Below, piece by piece: positions 4,935 through 26,606 of a DNA stretch of 40,422 nt. How positions within the stretch are numbered: position 1 is the stretch's first letter; each line of letters opens with the position of its first letter. Under the pieces are notes generated by a model. The model saw nothing but the letters and a program-made list of their open reading frames with translations. It did not search any database and had not been told where the DNA came from. Position numbers and translations under genes: made by a program. The stretch covers positions 1 to 40,422 of the forward strand of contig JAILDN010000023.1 in NCBI GenBank assembly GCA_024689425.1, in the 5' to 3' direction. The stretch comes from Methanobrevibacter sp. (lineage in GTDB: Archaea; Methanobacteriota; Methanobacteria; Methanobacteriales; Methanobacteriaceae).

Positions 4935-4968
4935 AAAAAAATAAGAGTAAAGTGTTGATTTTCAACAA

Positions 4969-6086: not shown

Positions 6087-6758
6087 TTAAATTGAATTAA
6101 AATAATCCTGCGTTAACTTGCAATTGCTCAAGCATTTAGAACAGCCCAAACCTTTCTTATACTGGTCAATTACATATTCACTGCAGGTTTTAATGTCTAT
6201 TATGTCTTCACGAGTCAATCTGGAATTCCATTTTGTAGGGTTGATTGCACCAACGGGACATGCCTTCTGGCACTCTTCACATTCATCGCAAAGGGAATCA
6301 GTGATTGGAGATGAAACCTCAAGAGGCATATCGGTCAATACGGAAGACAATGCAACGGCAGAACCATATTCCTCAGTGACAAAAAGGGCAGATCTTCCAA
6401 TCCAACCCAAACCTGAAGAGGTTGCAAGGGTCTTATAGGGAAGTCTTGAAAGCAATTTATCCATGTCTATTTCATTTCTATCCAAAGTCAATGCAAATGC
6501 ATCATATGAATTACTCTTGATTAATCTTTCCACATCCATTGAAATTTCCCTCAGTTCAGCTATTATCCCGTGAAAGCGAGTCCAATAATATTGATAGTCC
6601 TCATCAATAAGGGCTTGAATGCAATCCTTTGGAAGTTTCATGACCAATGAAATTCCATAATTAAAATCTGGAAATTCACTAACATTTATTTCAGTATATC
6701 CAACTTTTGAAACTCCCCTTTTAATCAAATACTCCTTTAATACATTTCCATCGAACAT
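6087..6758 (-). CDS. Epoxyqueuosine reductase-like 4Fe-4S protein
   Basis: CDECEECQKACPVGAINP and CSKCLSNCK cysteine clusters; QueG-like fold region GLGWIGRSALFVTEEYGSAV. Confidence 0.8.
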   Translation of the reverse strand: MFDGNVLKEYLIKRGVSKVGYTEINVSEFPDFNYGISLVMKLPKDCIQALIDEDYQYYWTRFHGIIAELREISMDVERLIKSNSYDAFALTLDRNEIDMDKLLSRLPYKTLATSSGLGWIGRSALFVTEEYGSAVALSSVLTDMPLEVSSPITDSLCDECEECQKACPVGAINPTKWNSRLTREDIIDIKTCSEYVIDQYKKGLGCSKCLSNCKLTQDYFNSI

Positions 6759-6829
6759 TATTTAATTCTATTACAATAGTTATATTTAAATATGATGTCG
6801 ACATATCATTATATAACTCGTGTTATTTT

Positions 6830-6843
6830 TTAGGTTAATCTAA
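6830..6843. promoter_or_regulatory. Imperfect DtxR/IdeR-like box (TTAGGTTAATCTAA)
   Basis: Near-palindrome with TTAGG half-site, 22 bp centre-to-centre from the next box. Confidence 0.5.
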
Positions 6844-6850
6844 ATAAAAA

Positions 6851-6866
6851 TTTAGGTATGCCTAAA
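6851..6866. promoter_or_regulatory. DtxR/IdeR-like box (TTTAGGTATGCCTAAA)
   Basis: 6-bp perfect arms TTTAGG/CCTAAA around TATG. Confidence 0.68.
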
Positions 6867-6907
6867 AATTAACGAAATATTTATATACTATGAGTTACTA
6901 CATTATA

Positions 6908-7127
6908 TCTAGTGATGTAAAGTTAGGTTCGCCTAAAAACACATTGCTTAAAAAACATTATTAGTCGAAAGACATTATCTCCAAAAAAACACGAATGAAT
7001 TAGTTTTCCACAATTTTCTAATTCATAAGAAAAAATTTTTTCTGCCAAATAAATTTTTTCCAAAAAAAAAACAAGTCAATAAGGCGTTTACACTGCCATT
7101 AAACGCCTCTTATTATCCCTATTTTTT
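6908..7127 (+). ncRNA. Candidate structured, metal-regulated small RNA
   Basis: No ORF; TATA box at 6880-6887; inverted repeats ATGAATTAG/CTAATTCAT (6995-7026) and AGGCGTTTA/TAAACGCCT (7082-7108), then a T-tract at 7122-7127. Boundaries and strand are inferred. Confidence 0.4.
6923..6936. promoter_or_regulatory. DtxR/IdeR-like box (TTAGGTTCGCCTAA)
   Basis: Arms TTAGG/CCTAA around TTCG; about 40 bp downstream of a TTTATATA box (6880-6887). Confidence 0.68.
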
Positions 7128-7191
7128 AAAAAAATATCTTATTTATTAATAATATTAATCTAAAAAAAATAAAAAAAGTAAAGAGTTAAAA

Positions 7192-7737
7192 TTATAAATA
7201 ATTTTGAGCTCTTTGTTCGAAATGTGCTTTAGGATATCCGCAGACAGGACACATTTCAGGTGCATTAGGACCTTTCATAATGAATCCGCAGTTTTCACAT
7301 TTCCATTCAACATCTTCTTCTTTGGAAAATACAGTTTCATTCTCAACTGTGTCGAGTAAAGCTCTGTATCTTTCTTCATGTTCTTTTTCGATTCCGCCAA
7401 CTTTCTCAAACAAGAATGCGATTTTTGCAAATCCTTCTTCACGAGCAGTTTCTGCAAATTCTTTATACATTGAAGTCCATTCTTCGTTTTCACCGTCAGC
7501 AGCCGCATTTAAGTTAGCAATGGTGTCAGGAATTTCTTCACCGTTTAAAATTTTAAACCAAATTTTAGCATGTTCTCTTTCGTTTTTTGAAGTTTCCATA
7601 AAAATATCATGGATTTGAACATATCCTTCTTCAGCTGCTTTATTAGCAAAATATTGGTATTTAGTGTGAGCTTGGGACTCACCAGCGAATGCTGCTTTTA
7701 AATTTTCTTCAGTTTTTGTGCCTTTTAAATCAGTCAT
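7192..7737 (-). CDS. Rubrerythrin
   Basis: [31 protein letters not shown] and C-terminal rubredoxin-like [10 protein letters not shown]...[14 protein letters not shown] at 7737 with SD GGAGAT. Confidence 0.96.
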
Positions 7738-7881
7738 GATTACATCTCCAATAATATATTTTTTATACAAATTGATATAAAAAAATAGTGATTTGATTTT
7801 TGAAATTATGACAAAAACAAATTTAAATTGTATTTAATCGTTTGATAAAAAACATATACGATAAAAATTAAATCAAATATT

Positions 7882-15897: not shown

Positions 15898-16284
15898 TTA
15901 AATAATAACGCCTACAATAAACAACAAAGTAGAAACTATTACAATTATTTCCGCTATAACAAATGTCTCTTCGTACTCTATTAATTTAAATGAACAGTAA
16001 AATGACAACAATAGACTTAACATTGGATATAGCATTAATCTATCTTCATTAATCATTCTTACATGAAATATTGAACCAAAAACAGATATTATACCAATAA
16101 TTATTGCCAAAATACCAAAAATCTTCAATGCTCGGATTTTTTTAGCTTTAAAACCATCATTTTTAATGGGTGAAGAAACATTTTGAGGAATTTCTTGGCG
16201 TATTTCGGGGTTTAATCTAGTTCCACAATTTTCGCAAAATAGAGAATTATCTTCTGCTATCTTTCCACAGTTTGGACATTCCAT
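15898..16284 (-). CDS. Zinc-ribbon membrane protein
   Basis: MECPNCGKIAEDNSLFCENCGTRLNPE followed by three or four TM segments. Confidence 0.78.
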   Translation of the reverse strand: MECPNCGKIAEDNSLFCENCGTRLNPEIRQEIPQNVSSPIKNDGFKAKKIRALKIFGILAIIIGIISVFGSIFHVRMINEDRLMLYPMLSLLLSFYCSFKLIEYEETFVIAEIIVIVSTLLFIVGVII

Positions 16285-19510: not shown

Positions 19511-20055
19511 TTAGATATAGCTTTCATCCTTTTTTCTGAAGTGTGCTTGCGGGTGGTCACATAACGGACAGACTTCTGGTGCGTCCTTTCCATAATGGAT
19601 GTATCCACAGTTATTACATTTCCATGCGATTTCTTCATCTTTTACAAAGACTTTACCAGCAGCAAGTTTATCTGATAAAGCGTTGTATCTTTCTTCATGA
19701 GCCTTTTCAGTAGCTGCAGCGGCATCAAACAAGTCAGCTATATCATCCAAGCCTTCTTCACGTGCTTCAGCTGCGAAGTTTTTATACATTACGGTCCATT
19801 CTTCGTGTTCACCTGCTGCGGCATCAGCGAGGTTAACCTCAGTAGGAGGTACACTGCCACCGTTCAATAGTTTGAACCAGATTTTTGCATGTTCCTTTTC
19901 ATTGTCAGATGATTCTTGGAAAATGTCTTTAAATTCAACATAACCGTCTTTTTTAGCTTGTGATGCATAAAATTCGTATTTTACACGTGCTTGGGATTCT
20001 CCTGCCAGAGCAGTTCTTAAGTTTTCTTCTGTTTTTGTACCTTTTAATTCTACCA
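19511..20055 (-). CDS. Rubrerythrin (second copy)
   Basis: [32 protein letters not shown]-terminal CNNCGYIHYGKDAPEVCPLCDHPQAHF; ATG at 20055 with SD GGAGAT. Confidence 0.96.
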
Positions 20056-20118
20056 TTTTTATCATCTCCAAAATAAATGGATTATATTATACATAAACTT
20101 TCTAGTATATATACTTAA

Positions 20119-24899: not shown

Positions 24900-26606
24900 T
24901 AAATCTGATTCTTCAAGTTTGCTTTCAAAGTAATGTGCTGCTTCATCCGCTTTATCTTTAATTAAAAGACAAATGATAACTGTTGCAACTAAAATTCCTA
25001 AAAGTACTAAAAATGAAGGAATATAATTGCTCCATAGCAATCCCAATGCAGATTCCCGAATAATATTTATCGCATAGGTCATTGGTAAAAACGGATATAA
25101 AACCTTGAAAATAGGATCCATAATCTCGATTGGATAGATACCACCAGTACCTGAAATCTGGAATACCAGCAGCAGTATTGACAATCCTTTTCCAACTTGT
25201 CCCAGCGCGGATATGAACGAATAAATCAATATCATGAACACAACCGACACAAGCATACATGAAAATATAAACATTATTGGATTATCTATGTCTATTCCAA
25301 TTATGAATGCCAAAGTTATGGTTACTGCTGATTGTAACAGCGCCATGACAATATAGAATCCCAATTTACCGAAATACATTTCAAGAGGAGAATATTTCGT
25401 TCCAGCACTTATTCCCGGCCTAATCATTACACAAGTAATTACAGCTCCTACCCACATTGATAAAACAAGATAGAATGGGGCGACTTGAGAACCATAATTG
25501 GATGCCTGATATAGATTAACCTTTTCAAGATTGATTGGAGAATAGAAATACTGGCCTAAAACACTTTCATTAATTCCTGTTACACCAGCTAAAGAACTGG
25601 AAGCACCTCCAAGAGCAGCTGCGGCCGCATATAATGCTGAAGAAGCAGAACTTGACAGCAAACTTGCTCCAGCAGCCAGGCTTAATGAACCTTGTGCAAG
25701 TTGAGATGAACCCATAGCCAACTGTGAGGAACTTTGAGCCAGATTTCCAGAACCTCCGGCAACCTGAGAACTTGCATTCGCCAGATTAAGTGAACCGACT
25801 ACTACCTGTTTAATTTTACCTTCAGGAAGTGTACTTGGATCAATAGAGGATTGTATTTGTGCTGCACCTTGCTGTACCTTAGCTGAACCTTCAGAAACCT
25901 GCTGAGCACCGCCAGATACCTGGCTGGCACCGGCTTGTATTTGACCTGCACCACTAGATACCTGACCGGCACCGGCTTGTATTTGACCTGCACCTCCAGA
26001 TAATTGTACTGCACCAGATGATAACTTCGCAGAACCTGAGGAAAGAGATGATTGTAACTGACCTAATTTAGAATAAGCGGCCAAATTAATAAATTCAACT
26101 ATTTTAGCATTCATTTCTTTATAAACAGCATTTGCGCCCTGTTGAGCAATTCTTGGCGCTACAGGATTGGTCTTATCATTTACGATATAATATAATATTG
26201 CAGTCTTTGGGTGCTCCGAAGAAATCGAAACAACGTTTTCACTTAGGTTTTGAGGAATAATAATTCCCGAATAATATGTTCCGTTTTTAACACCCTCACG
26301 CAATTCGCTTTCACTTACAAATACCCAATTGAAATCAGTGTTATTTTTCAACGTATTAACTAGTTCATTACCCACATTAATGCTCATATTGTTATATGTT
26401 GTTCCATTATCCAAATTGGCAACTGCAAATTTCATATTGCCTGTTTTTTCATATGGATCCCAACAAGCTTCAATGTTGATAATCGCATATAATGAAGGCA
26501 ATATAATTATAGCTATTAAAACTGTAATAACAATAGGATTTAATAATGCGGAATGAAAATCATGCTTCATAATCTCAATAATATTATTAATATCCCTTCC
26601 GCTCAT
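24894..26606 (-). CDS. YhgE/Pip domain-containing membrane protein
   Basis: N-terminal TM and PSLYAIINIEACWDPY; long heptad SGAGQIQAGAxQVSxGA segment; C-terminal ABC-2-like TM region; SD GAGGTG before ATG at 26606. Confidence 0.87.
   Translation of the reverse strand: MSGRDINNIIEIMKHDFHSALLNPIVITVLIAIIILPSLYAIINIEACWDPYEKTGNMKFAVANLDNGTTYNNMSINVGNELVNTLKNNTDFNWVFVSESELREGVKNGTYYSGIIIPQNLSENVVSISSEHPKTAILYYIVNDKTNPVAPRIAQQGANAVYKEMNAKIVEFINLAAYSKLGQLQSSLSSGSAKLSSGAVQLSGGAGQIQAGAGQVSSGAGQIQAGASQVSGGAQQVSEGSAKVQQGAAQIQSSIDPSTLPEGKIKQVVVGSLNLANASSQVAGGSGNLAQSSSQLAMGSSQLAQGSLSLAAGASLLSSSASSALYAAAAALGGASSSLAGVTGINESVLGQYFYSPINLEKVNLYQASNYGSQVAPFYLVLSMWVGAVITCVMIRPGISAGTKYSPLEMYFGKLGFYIVMALLQSAVTITLAFIIGIDIDNPIMFIFSCMLVSVVFMILIYSFISALGQVGKGLSILLLVFQISGTGGIYPIEIMDPIFKVLYPFLPMTYAINIIRESALGLLWSNYIPSFLVLLGILVATVIICLLIKDKADEAAHYFESKLEESDLF
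25926..25994 (-). repeat. 42-bp in-frame tandem repeat in the YhgE/Pip heptad region
   Basis: GGCACCGGCTTGTATTTGACCTGCACC at 25926 and again at 25968 (offset 42 bp = 14 aa = 2 heptads). Confidence 0.85.

Follow-up and report, generated by a model that had tools for sequence, protein, structure and literature searches.

Iron sparing by small RNAs is a textbook bacterial strategy that has evolved several times. RyhB, PrrF and FsrA, all of them bacterial, are made under iron shortage and repress the mRNAs of iron proteins. Few known cells are as rich in iron as methanogens; no iron-responsive archaeal sRNA turned up in the papers searched. The closest working analogue of the locus described here is IsrR of Staphylococcus, a Fur-repressed, iron-sparing sRNA of about 174 nt that occurs genus-wide (PMC9410917). 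Our results suggest that an intergenic gap (6759-7191) in a 40,422-nucleotide stretch of Methanobrevibacter DNA, here termed the window, probably encodes a trans-acting, base-pairing sRNA of about 215 nt that spares iron and is repressed by DtxR.

Anatomy and conservation of the RNA

The original prediction for this gap described DtxR-like boxes, a promoter and a series of hairpins in DNA with no meaningful ORF. A sequence check recovered every one of these elements in place, and no ORF of at least 80 aa that could be a gene is present. Searches against Rfam (whole window) and for tRNAs (gap) gave no family over threshold and no tRNA, respectively; hence, no known RNA family was matched in the window. 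The features of the locus, and of the genes that bear on it, are as follows.

6087..6758, minus strand: QueG-like Fe-S protein, leftward neighbour (partial match below cut-off)
6830..6843, no strand: box 1, TTAGGTTAATCTAA, DtxR-type palindrome with 1 mismatch; position not shared by the family
6852..6865, no strand: box 2, TTAGGTATGCCTAA, DtxR-type palindrome upstream of the TATA box, within TTTAGGTATGCCTAAA (6851-6866)
6873..6887, plus strand: archaeal promoter, BRE-like CGAAATA plus TATA box TTTATATA (6880-6887)
6911..6948, plus strand: predicted 5' end and 5' hairpin, with outer stem AGTGATGT/ACATTGCT and box 3 as inner stem
6923..6936, no strand: box 3, TTAGGTTCGCCTAA, DtxR-type palindrome just downstream of the predicted start
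6964..6973, plus strand: hairpin 2, GTC GAAA GAC in the window copy; longer and in other registers elsewhere
6973..6993, plus strand: unpaired C-rich linker CATTATCTCCAAAAAAACAC, presumed seed for ribosome-binding sites
6995..7026, plus strand: hairpin 3, ATGAATTAG/CTAATTCAT, conserved loop TTTTCCACAATTTT
7029..7060, plus strand: hairpin 4, GAAAAAATTT/AAATTTTTTC, conserved loop with TCTGCCAAA
7082..7108, plus strand: hairpin 5, terminator stem AGGCGTTTA/TAAACGCCT
7109..7127, plus strand: U-rich tail and presumed 3' end; a TTATCTCTTTTT-type tail is conserved
7192..7737, minus strand: rubrerythrin 1, convergent neighbour and predicted target; ribosome-binding site TTGGAGATGTA at 7741-7751, minus strand
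19511..20056, minus strand: rubrerythrin 2, predicted target; ribosome-binding site TTTTGGAGATGATA at 20060-20073, minus strand

Matches to TTAGGN4CCTAA with at most one mismatch number only three in the 40-kb window, where 1.2 are expected, and all three fall within 107 bp. The RNA from 6911 to 7125 has a predicted folding energy of -36.2 kcal/mol (z = -3.9), better than 200 of 200 shuffled sequences. The palindrome AGAAAAAATTTTTTCT (7028-7043), originally listed as an element of its own, is present but is not a separate hairpin; it forms the 5' arm and part of the loop of the conserved hairpin GAAAAAATTT[TTTCTGCCAAAT]AAATTTTTTC (7029-7060).

The window genome (G000, contig C49) carries a second copy of the RNA on contig C33, and each relative's genome yielded many matches in a DNA search, frequently arranged in tandem. 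About 50 copies were retrieved for an alignment, across which the CGAAATA/TATA promoter is kept, and a covariance model was built for searching the family. Of 67 genomes assigned to the genus (Methanobrevibacter as NCBI defines it), 62 gave a hit to this model, at 1-5 copies each, among them 36 of the 37 nearly complete ones; a 150-genome sample of the order added only one more genome. When a specific pattern was run against 264 billion bases of named genomes, all 34 matches were to Methanobrevibacter, M. thaueri among them. That the family is real is hardly in doubt, and it is near certain that the gap holds one copy of a multicopy, previously undescribed small RNA family. The several near-identical copies probably raise dosage.

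A typical copy consists of a box, 26-28 nt, the TATA box, about 27 nt, the start, the 5' hairpin and hairpin 2, followed by the unpaired linker, hairpins 3 and 4 and the terminator. Among 84 copies with the family TATA box, 81 have a box 26-28 nt upstream of it and 74 have a second one, 41-45 nt downstream of where the TATA box begins and just past the predicted transcription start; the background frequency of such boxes is 0.036 per kb. The original proposal, a metal-regulated plus-strand RNA of around 220 nt that starts near 6908, with a roadblock box immediately after the start, is supported by the recurrence of this unit in 62 of 67 genomes, with its spacing fixed and its helices changing in a compensatory manner. 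In the transcript, the second box would form the inner stem of the 5' hairpin; the 5' helix is present in 77 of 82 copies as against about 20 in shuffles. The outer stem AGTGATGT/ACATTGCT is kept in the predicted fold of eight of the nine copies that lack the second box; some other copies have AAGTGA/TCACTT in its place. Two clades differ in the register of hairpin 2. Of 84 copies, 79 have CTCC and 62 have CAATCTCC in the linker region; the usual form of the linker is CAAUCUCCAAAA, with CAATCTCCAAAA in most copies of the family. The loop of hairpin 3, TTTTCCACAATTTT (7004-7017 in the window), is nearly invariant.

The hairpins, whose absence from relatives would have counted against the original prediction, are conserved with compensatory changes. 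In an alignment fitted to the structure, two-sided compensatory cells number 217 in helices 3, 4 and 5 (67 +/- 7 in shuffles), and the share of paired cells is 93% (at most 50% when slid); an unfitted alignment gives nine pairs with two-sided changes. It is scarcely credible, therefore, that the family is a dispersed repeat or mobile element with no RNA function: its copies are indeed multiple, both dispersed and tandem, but nearly all of them have a regulated promoter with fixed box spacing and a terminator, their helices change in a compensatory manner, and almost every genome of the genus has a low number of copies. Also very improbable is a role as a cis-acting leader or attenuator of the downstream gene, or as a small-protein gene. 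A same-strand ORF lies downstream of 26 of 87 copies, as such a role would predict, but these genes begin at least 125 nt past the terminator and the downstream genes of the other 61 are convergent. A riboswitch or leader was rejected on these grounds. Within the RNA itself, most ORFs are shorter than 30 aa, and they share no common length; a small-protein gene was rejected as no ORF is conserved. The locus thus has the structured, independent RNA with its own terminator and no conserved ORF that is seen in the iron-sparing sRNA class.

Probable control by a DtxR-type repressor

Boxes of the same type also stand ahead of feoB in the window genome, with three exact matches and one near-exact, and ahead of ABC transporters and a handful of further genes. 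A single DtxR-family gene was found (contig C69, around 25440-26150; PF02742, E = 2.6e-28), and a near-exact box lies 71 nt before its start, as autoregulation would lead one to expect. Iron-repressor sites at the promoter, another trait of the iron-sparing class, are represented here by predicted boxes with fixed spacing that are shared with feoB and the DtxR gene. On these data, it is highly probable that a DtxR-type repressor controls the RNA, and the signal is very likely to be iron. Box 1 is possibly an extra box serving the leftward QueG-like gene. Leyn and Rodionov are said to have described archaeal DtxR regulons in 2015, and an earlier prediction of these boxes is possible.

The DtxR family includes both manganese and iron sensors, and manganese or another metal might be the signal for a similar action against ribosome-binding sites. 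We regard this as improbable. The genes beside 21 RNA copies are feoB, the gene for a ferrous iron transporter and the commonest neighbour of the family, while rubrerythrin lies beside 13; iron is favoured over manganese because feoB is both preceded by the same boxes and most often adjacent, and the predicted targets are iron-related proteins.

Several other loci are linked to the boxes or depart from them. A box cluster beside feoB (L026, 5011-5166) is kept in the window genome, where the RNA model finds no RNA; other genomes have an RNA copy beside feoB, and the cluster is possibly a lost copy. The RNA core also occurs without DtxR boxes and without the usual TATA box, in two copies (L108, upstream of 1501, and L053, upstream of 3256) whose upstream regions differ from the rest of the family and resemble one another; such paralogues may answer to another signal. 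Exact DtxR-type boxes also lie beside two SAM-dependent methyltransferase-like genes (MNLEGVEKTMLLTLFAKA...; L029, box at 4967, and L031, box at 16062), which may have a role in metal supply.

Predicted mRNA targets

Duplex energies were computed between the consensus linker and gene starts in samples of about 538 kb of the window's own genome and about 800 kb of a second genome (G014), about a third of each. Starts of genes for rubrerythrins or proteins with a ferredoxin-type Fe-S motif were more complementary to the linker than the rest in the two genomes (p = 0.0026 and 0.006), a bias equalled by none of 100 shuffled linkers. Conservation among 153 orthologue pairs was highest for three: Mmp3, a small ferredoxin that resembles the delta subunit of 2-oxoacid oxidoreductase, and rubrerythrin 1. 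Both rubrerythrins of the window match the linker; pairing of rubrerythrin 2 with the linker of the window copy has a computed energy of -16.0 kcal/mol, and TTGGAGATGTA or a close form precedes rubrerythrin 1 in most genomes.

Several of the predicted target sites are kept across the genus and missing from genera that lack the RNA. The start of Mmp3, GGAGATTGTATG, is kept in 21 of 25 genus genomes and is absent from the outgroup genomes read, in which the RNA was not found. The exceptions are G012, with no RNA found, G004 and G021, with changed linkers, and G011, in which only one of three RNA copies is canonical. Similarly, TTTGGAGATT or a close form is present at FdhA in 16 of 19 genus genomes, and of the three exceptions, G008 and G013 have a CTCTCC linker instead in their known RNA copies. 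This co-variation of linker and target is suggestive only, being confounded with phylogeny. In G011 and G021, the FdhA matches (L376 and L377) lie within a longer open frame and run across in-frame stop codons; the outgroup genes L378 and L379 have an in-frame TGA. Mmp3 is a subunit of the methyl-CoM reductase activation complex, which works through nitrogenase-like iron-sulfur clusters held by McrC and Mmp7 (PMC12176620); we therefore class Mmp3 as iron-related rather than as a shown iron protein.

Conserved complementarity at the ribosome-binding sites of iron-protein mRNAs, as found in the iron-sparing class, is thus present here, weakened by the fact that much of it is a generic anti-Shine-Dalgarno core. 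When TCTCC was kept and the flanks were shuffled, the conserved target pairs were not unusual (48 of 150 shuffles were as high) and the excess of iron proteins was modest (1 of 80 shuffles as extreme for both genomes summed, 7 of 80 and 5 of 80 singly). Other parts of the RNA were also considered as seeds. The hairpin 3 loop was rejected, with no iron-protein bias and no preferred mRNA partner among gene starts; it may bind a protein. The hairpin 4 loop (TCTGCCA against ATGGCAGA) gave suggestive values only (p = 0.07 in the own genome, p = 0.05 in G014) and is a good match to many rubrerythrin 2 starts. The C-rich motif of the terminator loop gave mostly generic Shine-Dalgarno matches and was discarded.

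It is conceivable that an iron-regulated noncoding RNA acts mainly through a protein, such as an Sm-like protein or a translation factor, or on ribosomes through its anti-Shine-Dalgarno motifs. The near-invariant hairpin 3 loop, for which no mRNA partner was found, and the large share of the generic core in the target signal would fit such a role. We nevertheless consider it unlikely, as the flanks of the linker are conserved too, iron-related genes are preferred and sites matching the linker are retained in the Mmp3 and FdhA leaders across the genus.

Repression of mRNA targets by base pairing is likely on the basis of these sequence comparisons. In iron-replete cells, a DtxR-family repressor would sit on the palindromes flanking the promoter and keep the gene silent; as iron falls, the repressor would leave and an RNA ending at the terminator hairpin would be made. 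Its conserved hairpins, a structure derived from comparison, would act as a scaffold displaying the unpaired C-rich linker and the C-rich loops. The linker, which is complementary to the Shine-Dalgarno or start regions of the rubrerythrin, FdhA, ferredoxin and Mmp3 mRNAs, would pair there and block translation of iron-related proteins, and iron would be saved for essential enzymes. Where a copy has a different linker sequence, its targets may differ too. Two diverged copies (L062:3237-3560 and L041:4613-4931) have the same hairpin architecture with other C-rich linker and loop sequences, for example CTCTCTTTT and CCACTCCC, and look as though paralogues had changed targets.

Comparison with described regulatory RNAs

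On balance, we favour the view that this is the first archaeal iron-sparing sRNA network, one that would repress rubrerythrins, formate dehydrogenase, ferredoxins and Mmp3 under iron limitation and so couple methane formation to the iron supply in methanogens of the rumen and gut. If true, methane output in the guts of livestock and humans would be linked directly to iron by regulation that turns down formate dehydrogenase and a part of the methyl-CoM reductase activation machinery. It would also raise the questions of how archaeal sRNAs find their targets, whether they need an RNA chaperone and how targets are divided among sRNA paralogues.

Among archaeal RNAs, sRNA162 and sRNA154 of Methanosarcina mazei and sRNA132 of Haloferax volcanii are likewise intergenic and trans-acting; sRNA162 masks a ribosome-binding site, and sRNA154 and sRNA132 belong to nutrient responses. 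However, these RNAs come from other orders and are concerned with nitrogen, methylamine or phosphate, not iron, and no relation to them was found. Of the bacterial RNAs, FsrA also places a C-rich motif on the Shine-Dalgarno sequence; RyhB, PrrF and FsrA differ in their control by Fur and their Hfq or FbpABC helpers, and none of them was matched by the Rfam search here. The likeness to IsrR is wider: both RNAs are genus-wide, with two iron-repressor boxes at the promoter, hairpins and a terminator, single-stranded C-rich regions, binding to Shine-Dalgarno sequences (predicted here) and an AT-rich genome, and fdhA is among the IsrR targets as FdhA is among those predicted here (PMC9410917). IsrR is, in contrast, a single, Fur-controlled gene of a bacterium that has been tested in the laboratory, while the present RNA is archaeal, DtxR-controlled by prediction, present in 1-5 copies and known from sequence. 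No relation in sequence or fold to IsrR was found, and the likeness is best read as convergent, since domain, repressor family, sequence and fold all differ. Nor is descent from IsrR, RyhB or FsrA indicated, with no Rfam match over threshold in the window and a family confined to the genus bar one genome of the order sample. The RNA is best read as an archaeal analogue of IsrR, RyhB and FsrA that is unrelated to them by descent.
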